This document shows, piece by piece, positions 6,921 through 22,758 of a stretch of 64,000 nt of DNA. The notes under the pieces were generated by a model. That model saw only the letters and a list, made by a program, of their open reading frames with translations, was not told the DNA's origin and searched no databases. How positions within the stretch are numbered: position 1 is the first letter of the stretch; the number at the start of each line of letters is the position of its first letter. The stretch is taken from IMG/VR virus record IMGVR_UViG_3300035181_001045, positions 170,660-234,659 of that record; one strand, 5' to 3'. The position numbers and the translations under genes are program-made. Source of the DNA: a virus.

Positions 6921-7690
6921 TGTCAGGTAACGTCGTTGTTTTTGGGATCTCTCCGGACACGGTCATGCTGGAGGACATTCAGATGGATGTCCCCCATTCG
7001 ACTTCCGTCACGATCCCGGAGGATCTGGCCCTCAAGTCGAAGGACCTGTGGCGGGCGCTCTCGCAGCGGAAGATCTTCCGTCTGACGAGTGACCTCAACC
7101 CCCACAAGGTGTTCACGGCTTCCCCCGCGCCTCTCCTCGTGAGCCCTCCGCCTTCGGATGACCAGGAGCGAGTCACGTCTCTGGCTCATGGGTACAAGCA
7201 GCTTCAGGATGAAGTCGAGCGGCTCTTGCCGTTTGAATCCGCCAACGTCCAGCTCGCGCGTGAGCTGGACGAGTCCGAGCTGGGGAAGAAGTACGCTCTC
7301 GAAGACGGTGTGATCCTTCGAGAAGCAAAGGCCACGGTGGAAGCGGAGCTGTCGACCGTGACGGCTGCCAACGTCCAGCTCACGAACGACATCGCTCGTC
7401 TCCAGGGCCAGCTCGACCTCTATGAGGCACAGATCGGAGGACGCGAGAAGCTCGATGAGATCCTCAAGCTTCTCAAGGAGCGGCCTGTCGTGATCATGCA
7501 GAACACGGGTGGGCTCGGGATCCTGAAGGCTGTGACGGATGTTGTGGGTGGTGACGCCCCGGCATTCATCCCCTCGACGATCGCCTCGAAGGACATGGAT
7601 GCCCATGTCGAGGTTCAGTCGGAGACTTCGGAAGGGTCTTCGGTCTCGGGCGCCTCGGCCGCTCTCAAGAAGAAGCGTCAGGGGAACTGA
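6920..7690 (+). CDS. structural-operon protein with long coiled coil
   Basis: 256 residues starting at the ATG that overlaps the preceding TAA. The first ~75 residues form a small beta domain containing PHSTSVTIPEDLALKSKDLW. Residues ~95-185 are a predicted coiled coil rich in Leu, Glu and Lys, with the repeated phrase ANVQL at two places. The tail is Ser-rich and ends in KKKRQGN. No enzyme motif is seen; family not recognised. Confidence 0.55.
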   Translation: MSGNVVVFGISPDTVMLEDIQMDVPHSTSVTIPEDLALKSKDLWRALSQRKIFRLTSDLNPHKVFTASPAPLLVSPPPSDDQERVTSLAHGYKQLQDEVERLLPFESANVQLARELDESELGKKYALEDGVILREAKATVEAELSTVTAANVQLTNDIARLQGQLDLYEAQIGGREKLDEILKLLKERPVVIMQNTGGLGILKAVTDVVGGDAPAFIPSTIASKDMDAHVEVQSETSEGSSVSGASAALKKKRQGN

Positions 7691-20912: not shown

Positions 20913-20966
20913 CAAGAGGGGGCCCCGATCAACCTCTCCATAAAATCGATGCTACGTCGGGGACGT

Positions 20967-21023: not shown

Positions 21024-21758
21024 ATGGGCAAGCTTTGCCAGATCATCGCGGTCGAAAAGGGTCTCAAGTCGAAGGCGTACGACGAGCTGAAGACCTACCA
21101 CAAGGAGCTGAAGAAGCCGGCGCAGCTCGAAGGGTTCTCGCGGACCTACGCGCCCTTCTCAGACACGCAGGAAGAGCGGCTCCCGCCGGAGCTGAAGCAC
21201 GTCCAGCTCAAGGCCGCGGATGCCATCGAGCACACGGTGAAGGTCCTCACGGAGGCCTTCGACATCACGGCCACGAAGGAGTGGGGGAACACCATCGCGC
21301 GAGCGAACATCGTCGTGGATGGGAAGGTCATCCTCGCGGATGTCCCCGTCGGCGTGCTGCTCTTCCTGGAGCACCAGCTCGACGACCTCACCACGTTCAT
21401 CGGCTCGCTCCCGACGCTCGACCCGGCCGAGTCGTGGACCTACGACGAGAACCAGGCCTGCTTCGCCACGGCTCCGGCCATCACGCAGCGGACGCGGAAG
21501 ACGCCCACCGTCATCACGAAGGCGGAGCCCACCCAGTACCATCCGGCGCAGACCGAGATTTTCCACGAGGACAAGGCGGTCGGACAGTACACGGTCGTCA
21601 AGCGCTCGGGGGCCCTCACGGCGACTCGGGTCAACGTGCTGAAGGACCGCGTCTCGAAGCTCCGGATCGCCGTGAAGTTCGCGCGTGAGGAGGCCAACAC
21701 CATCGAGGTCGAGAACCGCCACATCGGGGCGACGATTCTCCACAATCTCTTCGCCTAG
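21024..21758 (+). CDS. DUF7873-like conserved protein
   Basis: 244 residues, starting MGKLCQIIAVEKGLKS; an earlier in-frame start at 20949 would include the promoter-like region. The layout matches a protein family shared by many phages and bacteria that I recall as DUF7873: I-A-V-E-K-G-x-K-S N-terminus, FSRTYAPFSD, LPPELKHVQLKA, VPVGVLLFLEHQLDDL, LPTLDPAESW, and the C-terminal VKFAREEANTIEVE. Function is unknown. Codon bias is strongly GC-rich compared with neighbours. It is followed directly by the permuted tRNA locus. Confidence 0.6.
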   Translation: MGKLCQIIAVEKGLKSKAYDELKTYHKELKKPAQLEGFSRTYAPFSDTQEERLPPELKHVQLKAADAIEHTVKVLTEAFDITATKEWGNTIARANIVVDGKVILADVPVGVLLFLEHQLDDLTTFIGSLPTLDPAESWTYDENQACFATAPAITQRTRKTPTVITKAEPTQYHPAQTEIFHEDKAVGQYTVVKRSGALTATRVNVLKDRVSKLRIAVKFAREEANTIEVENRHIGATILHNLFA

Positions 21759-21769
21759 CGTCGAGATAT

Positions 21770-21775
21770 GGTGTA
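21770..21775 (+). promoter_or_regulatory. GGTGTA promoter-like motif before the tRNA locus
   Basis: GGTGTA follows the DUF7873-like stop by 12 bases and precedes the first tRNA piece. With the hairpin at 22183-22214 it would delimit a transcript of about 440 bases holding both permuted tRNAs. Confidence 0.45.
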
Positions 21776-21811
21776 CTAAAGATTTGAGTGCAGTCTCAGA
21801 GTAAGAGTCAG

Positions 21812-21964
21812 CTTCAGTAACCCTCTCTCCCCAAAAGGGCAGGTTCGATTCCTGCTCCCCCTATTCAGCCAGTCAGTGTGTGGGCTCCTTCACTGGGGTT
21901 TAGCAAAGCGCATTGGGTGGTTGAGTAGGGGGATAGCCCAGACGGCAGAGGCAAAGGCGAGGGG
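21812..21964 (+). tRNA. candidate circularly permuted tRNA, Leu-like
   Basis: The 3' half comes first: T stem GCAGG/CCTGC around TTCGATT (21839-21855), acceptor strand TCCCCCT (21856-21862), discriminator A (21863). The 5' half follows 63 bases later: acceptor AGGGGGA (21927-21933), TA, and a D arm GCC...GGC with GGCAGAGGCA resembling Leu tRNAs. The 7-bp acceptor pairs perfectly and extends four more pairs into the linker (GAGT/ATTC). GAGGG (21959-21963) pairs with CCCTC (21821-21825) as anticodon stem. TCTCCCCAAAAGG would be a 13-base class II variable arm. TTCAG at 21813-21817 suggests anticodon CAG. Six extra bases between D arm and anticodon stem are unexplained. No CCA is encoded. Confidence 0.55.
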
Positions 21965-22002
21965 AAACGATTCTTCTTCTCACTCCAGACTCAGCAGAAC
22001 CG

Positions 22003-22009
22003 ATACGAC
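22003..22009 (+). other. outer pairing strand of second permuted tRNA (leader)
   Basis: ATACGAC can pair with GTCGTGT at 22161-22167 (7 bp, one T-G). Inside it, GGGTCAG (22020-22026) pairs with CTGATCC (22143-22149). Both helices are nested around the anticodon stem, so leader and trailer could bring the two ends of the permuted transcript together. Confidence 0.4.
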
Positions 22010-22027
22010 ATCAATCTAAGGGTCAGG

Positions 22028-22132
22028 TCAATACGCCAAAACGCGGGTTCAAATCCCGCCCTCCCTGCAAGGCGCTCGTACATGGGTCGAGCTTCTCGCA
22101 GGGAGGTGGTCTAGCGGTAGGACGTGGTGTCT
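22028..22132 (+). tRNA. candidate circularly permuted tRNA, isotype unresolved
   Basis: The 3' half comes first: anticodon 3' strand ACGCCA (22033-22038), T stem GCGGG/CCCGC around TTCAAAT (22043-22059), acceptor CCTCCCT (22060-22066), discriminator G. After a 32-base linker the 5' half follows: acceptor AGGGAGG (22100-22106), TG, D arm GTCTAGCGGTAGGAC (22109-22123), anticodon 5' strand TGGTGT (22125-22130). Acceptor pairing is perfect and only in permuted order; the anticodon stem forms six pairs with one G-U. Joining ...CT (to 22132) to TCAAT (from 22028) gives a canonical seven-base loop with U33 and A37 and anticodon UCA, but other junctions give AAG, AAA or ACA. No CCA is encoded. Confidence 0.6.
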
Positions 22133-22182
22133 AAGCTTGAATCTGATCCAACGCTGTGACGTCGTGTAAAAAGCGGCACTAG

Positions 22183-22214
22183 AGGACCCCCCGGAAGGCT
22201 ATCTTGGGGGTCTT
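22183..22214 (+). terminator. terminator-like hairpin after the tRNA locus
   Basis: GACCCCC (22185-22191) pairs perfectly with GGGGGTC (22206-22212), extended by G-U and A-T pairs; the loop is 14 bases. The tail is only weakly T-rich. It closes the presumed tRNA transcript. The bases between 22133 and 22183 hold the trailer pairing strands. Confidence 0.6.
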
Positions 22215-22244
22215 CGCCTATTTGGGGTGCGGGATTTTGGGGTC

Positions 22245-22250
22245 GGTGTA
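22245..22250 (+). promoter_or_regulatory. GGTGTA motif, ten bases before start
   Basis: GGTGTA then ten bases (AGATCCCTCA) then ATG at 22261. It follows a terminator hairpin and is not part of a stop codon, which makes it one of the cleaner copies. Confidence 0.55.
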
Positions 22251-22260
22251 AGATCCCTCA

Positions 22261-22758
22261 ATGGCGAACTACGGCTACATCGACCTCCCTGGCGAGCTGA
22301 CTGAAGAGGCCTTCGAGGCAACCCTCACGGCTGCGGTTGCTCGGACGTTGAATACAGACTGGAAAATCGTCCTCACGTCCTTCGAGGATGGGGGTCCCGT
22401 CTGGATGGTCTTCCTCCCGGGCACAGCGGTCTCCACGGAAGAGACTCGCAAGCTTCCCTTCTTCTGCCAGGATGAGGCTGTGGGGTTCGTGGTGGCACTC
22501 CAGCCGAGCCGGGTGGCTTTCCGCCATGGGCCGATCGGTCCCTTTGCCCGCTGGGCTCAAGGTCGCATCGAGGAAGAGCTGGCGGACTTCTTCAACGTCG
22601 GCGTCGAGTACGATGCAACGGGTCGAGTGGCTCCGCCGGGGACTCGGGACTATCGGACGGGGACGACCTACAGGGAGTATCTCTTCCGACACTCGGGGCC
22701 TCTGGATTCCTGGTTGGAAAAGGAATACCAGAAGTGGGTCATCGAGGGCTACGAGTGA
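22261..22758 (+). CDS. phage protein, unknown function
   Basis: 165 residues, mixed alpha/beta: FEATLTAAVARTLNTDWKIVL, VWMVFLPGT, VGFVVALQPSRVAFRHG, then a helical C-terminus ending LEKEYQKWVIEGYE. It has no Shine-Dalgarno-like sequence; the GGTGTA motif stands at the fixed ten-base distance instead. Family not recognised. Confidence 0.55.
   Translation: MANYGYIDLPGELTEEAFEATLTAAVARTLNTDWKIVLTSFEDGGPVWMVFLPGTAVSTEETRKLPFFCQDEAVGFVVALQPSRVAFRHGPIGPFARWAQGRIEEELADFFNVGVEYDATGRVAPPGTRDYRTGTTYREYLFRHSGPLDSWLEKEYQKWVIEGYE

Follow-up and report, generated by a model that had tools for sequence, protein, structure and literature searches.

Why a phage genome carries tRNA-shaped sequences with their halves in the wrong order is the question raised by this locus. 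Within the 64,000 nucleotides analyzed here (the window, positions 170660 to 234659 of a 234,659-base virus record), inspection of the sequence finds two units on the + strand, directly 3' of a gene encoding a DUF7873 protein. In each, a T arm and a 3' acceptor strand lie ahead of the matching 5' acceptor strand and D arm (21839-21952 and 22043-22123), as the initial annotation had recognized. Permuted tRNA genes of algae and archaea also have their halves in swapped order with a linker between, and the units were at first taken for two such genes in a phage, matured through a circular intermediate. Here, we find that the locus most likely encodes one structured noncoding RNA with two tRNA-shaped heads rather than two scrambled tRNA genes.

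Results

Two units cap two arms of one predicted fold

How the units relate to each other is suggested by the fold. The unconstrained fold of 21770-22215 had an energy of -187.7 kcal/mol (z = -5.89 against 100 dinucleotide shuffles) and consisted of two arms, each capped by one unit. The parts are as follows.

21024-21758, + strand: DUF7873 gene, likely protein partner (PF25283, E 1.8e-90; alignment of 41 relatives; co-occurrence with the RNA)
21770-22215, + strand: proposed noncoding RNA, approximate ends (fold z -5.89; conserved in relatives)
21783-21831, + strand: arm I, upstream strand (pairs with 21959-21998 in the fold; weak comparative support)
21839-21855, + strand: T arm of tRNA-like domain 1 (sequence; RNAalifold)
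21856-21862, + strand: 3' acceptor strand of domain 1, TCCCCCT (7/7 pairs with 21927-21933)
21863-21926, + strand: linker that closes acceptor 1 and folds as a long hairpin (fold)
21927-21933, + strand: 5' acceptor strand of domain 1, AGGGGGA (sequence)
21934-21952, + strand: D arm of domain 1, of tRNA-Leu type in relatives (D-arm parse; isotype comparison)
21953-21998, + strand: arm I, downstream strand (fold)
22003-22038, + strand: arm II, upstream strand (22003-22009 and 22020-22028), and stem strand 22033-22038 (fold; covariation in relatives)
22043-22059, + strand: T arm of tRNA-like domain 2 (sequence; RNAalifold)
22060-22066, + strand: 3' acceptor strand of domain 2, CCTCCCT (7/7 pairs with 22100-22106)
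22067-22099, + strand: linker closing acceptor 2 (fold)
22100-22106, + strand: 5' acceptor strand of domain 2, AGGGAGG (sequence)
22107-22123, + strand: D arm of domain 2 (D-arm parse; fold)
22125-22167, + strand: arm II, downstream strand (fold, RNAalifold, and strand energies; match to covariance model R1 at 21997-22163, 60.8 bits)
22182-22215, + strand: 3' hairpin, terminator-like, loop region AAGGCTATC (fold; relatives)

The open frame of the DUF7873 gene begins at 20949, and the start of its homologues corresponds to the ATG at 21024. Arm II pairs 22003-22009 with 22161-22167, 22020-22028 with 22141-22149, and 22033-22038 with 22125-22130. Both acceptors were perfect over 7 bp (AGGGGGA/TCCCCCT and AGGGAGG/CCTCCCT), as had been reported, and the earlier coordinates are correct as well. 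The linkers between the acceptor strands measure 64 nt in unit 1 and 33 nt in unit 2, and the earlier lengths of 63 and 32 bases are correct with the discriminator left out. Two anticodon stems had also been proposed. That of unit 2 (ACGCCA/TGGTGT, 22033-22038 with 22125-22130) stands, but that of unit 1 (GAGGG/CCCTC) does not: its letters exist inside a longer imperfect helix, in which GAG and GGG (21959-21964) face CCC and CTC (21821-21827), and as a standard anticodon stem unit 1 of the window forms 3 of 5 pairs.

ARAGORN called no tRNA within the 64-kb window, and it found an ordinary tRNA array and a separate tmRNA in the remainder of the record. A permuted group I intron was discarded as a candidate, as no Rfam intron model matched 21740-22270 up to E 10. 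The upstream strand might also have encoded a short conserved peptide, but this idea was dropped, as similar downstream strands carry stops in some relatives. The loop of the 3' hairpin (22182-22215) reads GGATAY or GGCTAY in many relatives, and the hairpin may be more than a terminator, possibly a site for binding.

The units are conserved in phages and on bacterial chromosomes

How widely the units occur was followed through the neighboring protein. A search with DUF7873 gave 48 IMG/VR loci, and a relative is encoded in 73 cultured-phage records, 8 of which were examined. Among those 8, both units are present in GodonK, Mimi, NiceHouse, Pam2, and FBKp24; Guey18 has unit 2 together with another T-D match, a weak one; and a single unit is present in each of the Vibrio and Rhizobium phages. 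Bacterial genomes encode at least 566 relatives. The 80 bacterial loci used come mainly from Actinomycetota, together with Herpetosiphon, Ktedonobacter, and others, and 74 of them have one or more strict permuted units 3' of the gene. The strict scan of these 80 loci gave a single stray match on the other strand (L142), and no match in five rounds of 80 mononucleotide-shuffled loci scanned on one strand.

Both units were found together in 85 of 126 DUF7873 loci by a scanner that admitted linkers below 100 and spacings of 95 to 210; in the other 41 it found no unit pair. The 126 loci comprised 39 of the 48 from IMG/VR, 7 from cultured phages, and the 80 from bacteria. Nine IMG/VR loci (L025, L026, L029, L034, L036, L040, L041, L046, and L058) were excluded as duplicate, as truncated, or because the RNA was not beside the gene. 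Acceptor pairing in relatives, on which the initial annotation had staked its reading, was 7/7 in 84 of the 85 loci for unit 1 and in 84 of the 85 for unit 2, with 40 and 45 distinct 5' acceptor strands, respectively. From this comparison of sequences, we conclude that the two units form more than a chance pattern and are conserved across diverse phages and bacterial chromosomes. The RNA also sits on bacterial chromosomes and hence is not specific to phages.

Several other features were noticed at the related loci. In two of them (L045 and L046), a frame that by eye resembles an HNH endonuclease lies between the DUF7873 gene and the RNA, the R1 match of L045 being at 7262-7409. The record of Klebsiella phage FBKp24 annotates a suppressor tRNA (Sup-TTA) over the second T arm of the RNA (L068, 3518-3597), and this call may have mistaken the tRNA-like domain for a tRNA. 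In the tRNA array upstream of its DUF7873 gene, GodonK has a tmRNA match (RF00023, 90.3 bits; L031, 3414-3942), near which the features listed for this stretch include just one short hypothetical gene.

Each half pairs within its own unit and forms a tRNA-like core

Which halves belong together was assessed after the 85 unit pairs were thinned by similarity to 60, or to 56 after four D-arm parse failures. At least 6.5 of 7 acceptor pairs formed within the unit in 60/60 sequences for unit 1 and 58/60 for unit 2. Across units, the same level was reached in 3/60 for the second D half with the first T half and in 2/60 for the first D half with the second T half; the latter pairing, which would restore the normal order, is thereby ruled out. 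For the stem below the core, at least 4.5 of 5 pairs formed within the unit in 29/56 (unit 1) and 41/56 (unit 2), compared with 2/56 and 3/56 across units and 6 and 9% with the halves of other sequences.

The core resembles that of tRNA. U8 was present in all 56 sequences in both units. In unit 2, bases 15 and 48 were A-U in 35 sequences, G-C in 14, and any other combination in none, with 7 of the 56 unparsed; the covariation gives a Fisher p of 1.5e-12, a statistic that ignores descent. On these sequence data, the 15-48 pairs of unit 2 are a tertiary signature of tRNA. In unit 1, the pair was A-U in 51/56, the remainder being G/G (2), A/C (2), and C/C (1). The window itself is an outlier: its unit 1 is one of the two G/G cases (G15/G48) with a poor 5-bp stem, neither unit is followed by CCA, and its R1 score is 60.8 bits. 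Thus, both the tRNA-like fold and the within-unit pairing of the halves, as first proposed, are supported by the relatives.

The anticodon position is not kept, and the flanks pair into arms

How the units end where an anticodon loop should begin sets them apart from tRNA. U33, counted from the 5' half, was found in only 4 of 37 parsed stems of unit 1 and 16 of 54 of unit 2, and reading the loop from the 3' half did not reveal a conserved U at the place of position 33 either. Among tRNAs called by ARAGORN in the scanned loci, T precedes the anticodon in 367 of 378. A sixth stem pair formed in 25/37 (unit 1) and 35/54 (unit 2), and a sixth and seventh together in 8/37 and 11/54. These pairs rarely occur together, and therefore internal loops, rather than an unbroken helix, follow the stem.

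The flanking sequences pair beyond the stem. RNAalifold was run on 25 natural, unjoined sequences (alignment A2) from 28 loci with short linkers; another alignment (A3) held 33 of 35 loci. On A2 it predicted 49 pairs, 36 of them with changes on both sides, and recovered the T arm and acceptor hairpin of each unit along with the two main helices of arm II. MAFFT misaligns the stems below the cores, and these were not recovered from A2, nor were the proposed helices of arm I, for which an invariant 3-bp GAG/CTC was offered instead. Strands of arm II paired at -31.4 kcal/mol with their own partner versus -19.7 with another's. For arm I the difference was small (-23.0 versus -19.4 kcal/mol), and the own partner beat all 25 others in 5 of 56 sequences. 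By comparison of sequences, the flanks of each unit appear to pair into arms, well supported for arm II and weakly for arm I. Because U33 is not kept and the flanks are paired, we read the units as probable tRNA-like domains capping two arms.

Head 1 has a D arm of tRNA-Leu type, and the acceptor ends carry possible processing signals

The two heads differ in their letters. For the D arm of unit 1, tRNA-Leu was the nearest isotype in 51.5 of 56 sequences (ties shared; background share, 0.13), and that of unit 2 had no single nearest isotype among the 56. A D-arm pattern was counted in 46/56 for unit 1 and 0/56 for unit 2, the assignment itself being based on the nearest isotype. Base 73 is A in 77 of 85 units 1, and T or G in 82 of 85 units 2. 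Base 74 is C in 74/85 and 81/85, respectively. ACCA follows unit 1 in 38/85, and base 75 of unit 2 is T in 62/85. Position +1 is G in 50/60 (unit 1) and 52/60 (unit 2), a pattern that fits the substrate preferences of RNase P. The end letters and the G at +1 would suit RNase P and CCA maturation.

The RNA co-occurs with DUF7873

Whether the protein and the RNA belong together was judged with R1, a covariance model of arm II. Of 96 sources, 85 reached 50 bits or more with R1; among these are L013, whose sequence duplicates that of the window, and two members of the model. Scores fell below 50 bits in L025, L026, L037, L038, L066, L067, L068, L081, L092, L096, and L120; of these, L026, L092, and L120 have the RNA elsewhere in their respective genomes, and R1 matches L037, L038, and L066-L068 more weakly, at 22 to 40 bits. 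A full-length match was found in all 12 phage records, lying about 8.5 kb from the DUF7873 gene in one of them (G004). Each of eight bacterial genomes had a single DUF7873 gene and a single full-length match, scoring above 90 bits, and one (G012) had two further matches elsewhere at about 40 bits. In H. aurantiacus, 1.8 Mb separates the RNA from the gene.

Among 151 Chloroflexota genomes, DUF7873 was found in 11 and the RNA in 10, all within those 11 (Fisher p 9e-15, which overstates independence because the positives are partly close relatives). The RNA search here ran under stricter filters, with 20 candidates scored in each genome, such that absences, including that of an R1 match in the DUF7873-encoding genome G031, are less certain than presences. 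In 7 of the 10 RNA-bearing genomes, the RNA lies on another contig than the gene or at a distance of over 100 kb from it. Both parts are retained though unlinked, which argues for a joint function, and DUF7873 and the RNA are likely partners.

The predicted structure of DUF7873 (pLDDT 89) had no Foldseek match at E <= 0.001, and its best VIA-align row, to an unknown Corynebacterium protein (Z 9.6; rmsd 7.4 over 147 residues), is of little meaning. A PDB sequence search gave nothing under E 0.09, and NCBIfam and PHROGs gave nothing. The neighbors of the bacterial genes (10 proteins, 7 loci) had no family in common.

The RNA compared with known RNAs

No Rfam 15 model matched the RNA at the gathering threshold in the window, in 8 related loci, or in 19 related loci. 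Up to E 10, 21740-22270 had four weak matches, including the tRNA model at 16.7 bits. No account of the RNA or of DUF7873 was found among openly licensed PMC papers, and an account elsewhere is possible.

The closest known RNA is the YrlA Y RNA (RF02553), in which a single tRNA-like domain sits on a stem in permuted order; its consensus runs T arm, closed acceptor, and then D arm. The YrlA structure 6CU1 is described, in the part of the source consulted, as circularly permuted relative to tRNA (PMC13355120). According to the part consulted of PMC8394870, DusA and TruB modify the tRNA-like domain of YrlA, PNPase binds to that domain, and Rsr sits on the basal stem. Splicing is not described in the consulted parts of either account (PMC13355120, PMC8394870). 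A permuted tRNA-like domain with a closed acceptor is present twice in the RNA studied here, and the RNA thus resembles a Y RNA in its heads. It differs, however, in having two domains rather than one, about 450 nt rather than 90 to 150, other arms, and DUF7873 rather than Ro60/TROVE as the co-occurring protein. RF02553 did not match 21740-22270 up to E 10, nor the 8 and 19 related loci at gathering. Ro60/TROVE was absent from the phage's own record (possibly a fragment) and from the longer record of a close relative (G001). As there is no RF02553 match, no TROVE in its own record, and two heads in place of one, the RNA is not a member of YrlA. Ro60 was also dismissed as a general partner, being encoded in only 2 of 11 related phage records (G005 and G010) and not adjoining the two-headed RNA.

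Those two records have YrlA-like RNAs of their own near the TROVE gene, with further ones in G005 at a distance of 12 to 25 kb; they score up to 61.7 bits, under the RF02553 gathering score of 69. G005, a 392-kb record encoding a TROVE protein, holds several such RNAs (L164, L166, and L167). In G010, six Y-RNA-like copies distinguished by eye (GAACTC...GGTTATCG) precede the Ro60/TROVE gene (L163, G010:C1:87700-90600), and only some contain a tRNA-like unit.

tmRNA is a long RNA with a tRNA-like head, and its permuted two-piece genes have a loop between the acceptor strands. The present RNA shares a tRNA-like head on a long RNA with it but is two-headed, and the phage encodes a separate tmRNA. 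No tmRNA model matched the window at gathering or 21740-22270 up to E 10. Like permuted tRNA genes, mentioned for algae and archaea in the part of PMC10085705 consulted, the units have the 3' half before the 5' half, acceptors that pair, and a linker between. Unlike them, they have no conserved U33 or anticodon loop, and their flanks form arms.

Three other apparent RNA genes were noticed. L010 encodes a phage tmRNA (15821-16172) with the tag ANDNALVPMQMAA. L012 has a lone 73-position tRNA with anticodon TCA on the other strand (448-520), far from the tRNA array and labeled tRNA-SeC by ARAGORN, which is perhaps a UGA-reading tRNA. At 7905-8000 of L010 (C1:92504-92599 of the phage's own record), a T arm, 3' acceptor, and GCCA are followed by a 5' acceptor and D arm. 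By eye, 6 of 7 acceptor pairs form, an apparently complete anticodon arm (GAA, with C at position 33) follows the D arm, and no clear T arm lies behind it; R1 scores 36 bits, and ARAGORN makes no call. This may be a permuted tRNA-Phe broken at the variable loop.

Discussion

How the two units should be read depends on what happens at the anticodon end. As tRNA genes, they would be circularized at the anticodon loop by a nuclease and a ligase, and RNase P and RNase Z would remove the linkers. The permuted order, the tRNA core, and the within-unit pairing of acceptors and stems are what such genes would show, ACCA follows unit 1 in 38/85, and 5 of 12 phage records have an RNA_ligase (PF09414) above the cutoff, G001 and G002, the two nearest relatives of this phage, among them. 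U33 is rarely kept in either unit, however, with no rescue by reading from the 3' half, the flanks pair into conserved arms, and bacterial chromosomes carry the RNA as well. Moreover, the YrlA Y RNA has the same order, and GodonK has neither an RNA_ligase nor an RtcB match. RtcB, found in 0 of 12 records, was rejected as the splicing enzyme. The enzymes point in no clear direction, as the present phage's own record is below the RNA_ligase cutoff, but the matches in G001 and G002 mean that the phage may encode a ligase. We conclude that circularized tRNAs are not the best reading of the two units, and genuine permuted tRNA genes are highly improbable. A phage decoy that titrates host nucleases or defense factors acting on tRNA might account for the several phage loci that sit within tRNA arrays, but the RNA is widespread on bacterial chromosomes with the same protein, and a decoy seems least probable of all.

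Head 1 raises the question of charging. RNase P and 3' trimming could open the acceptors to leave a split, tmRNA-like RNA of three helix-held pieces, of which head 1 would receive CCA and be charged, probably with leucine. A73 (77/85), C74 in both units, the Leu-type D arm, and G at +1 all point that way. The window has no CCA, however, unit 2 mostly has T75, and the loop letters may be conserved for other reasons, and we consider such a split RNA unlikely. More doubtful still is a version in which the RNA and protein form a bacterial machine, also found in phages, whose head 1, with a tRNA-Leu identity (A73 and the Leu-type D arm), is opened by RNase P and charged with leucine while attached.

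Within the reach of sequence comparison, the within-unit pairing, the tRNA-like core, arm II, and the co-occurrence with DUF7873 are established features of one conserved RNA. We give a probability of roughly three in four to a two-headed tRNA-like RNA of about 450 nt that forms an RNP with DUF7873, whose heads recruit tRNA-binding factors, and of which phages carry the bacterial system's copy. The RNA would fold into two arms, each tipped by a T arm, a loop-closed acceptor stem, and a D arm. The order would be permuted because each domain is entered at the site of the anticodon stem and its acceptor end is closed. DUF7873 would bind the RNA, and the heads might dock PNPase, for example, as in Y RNA particles. 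Alternatively, the heads may dock the translation machinery or an enzyme that modifies or processes tRNA. An RNP with such heads would thus act like a two-headed Y RNA. The phage copies, in several cases inside tRNA arrays, may serve the same process during infection.

The locus adds a structured RNA without an Rfam match, and the uncharacterized DUF7873 family gains a likely RNA partner. The pair is present on Actinomycetota and Chloroflexota chromosomes and in cultured phages, and it can therefore be tested in laboratory strains. The RNA is an addition to the known RNAs that mimic tRNA in permuted form. Ultimately, when tRNA genes in bacteria or phages seem to be permuted, the first check should be whether they are tRNA-like domains.
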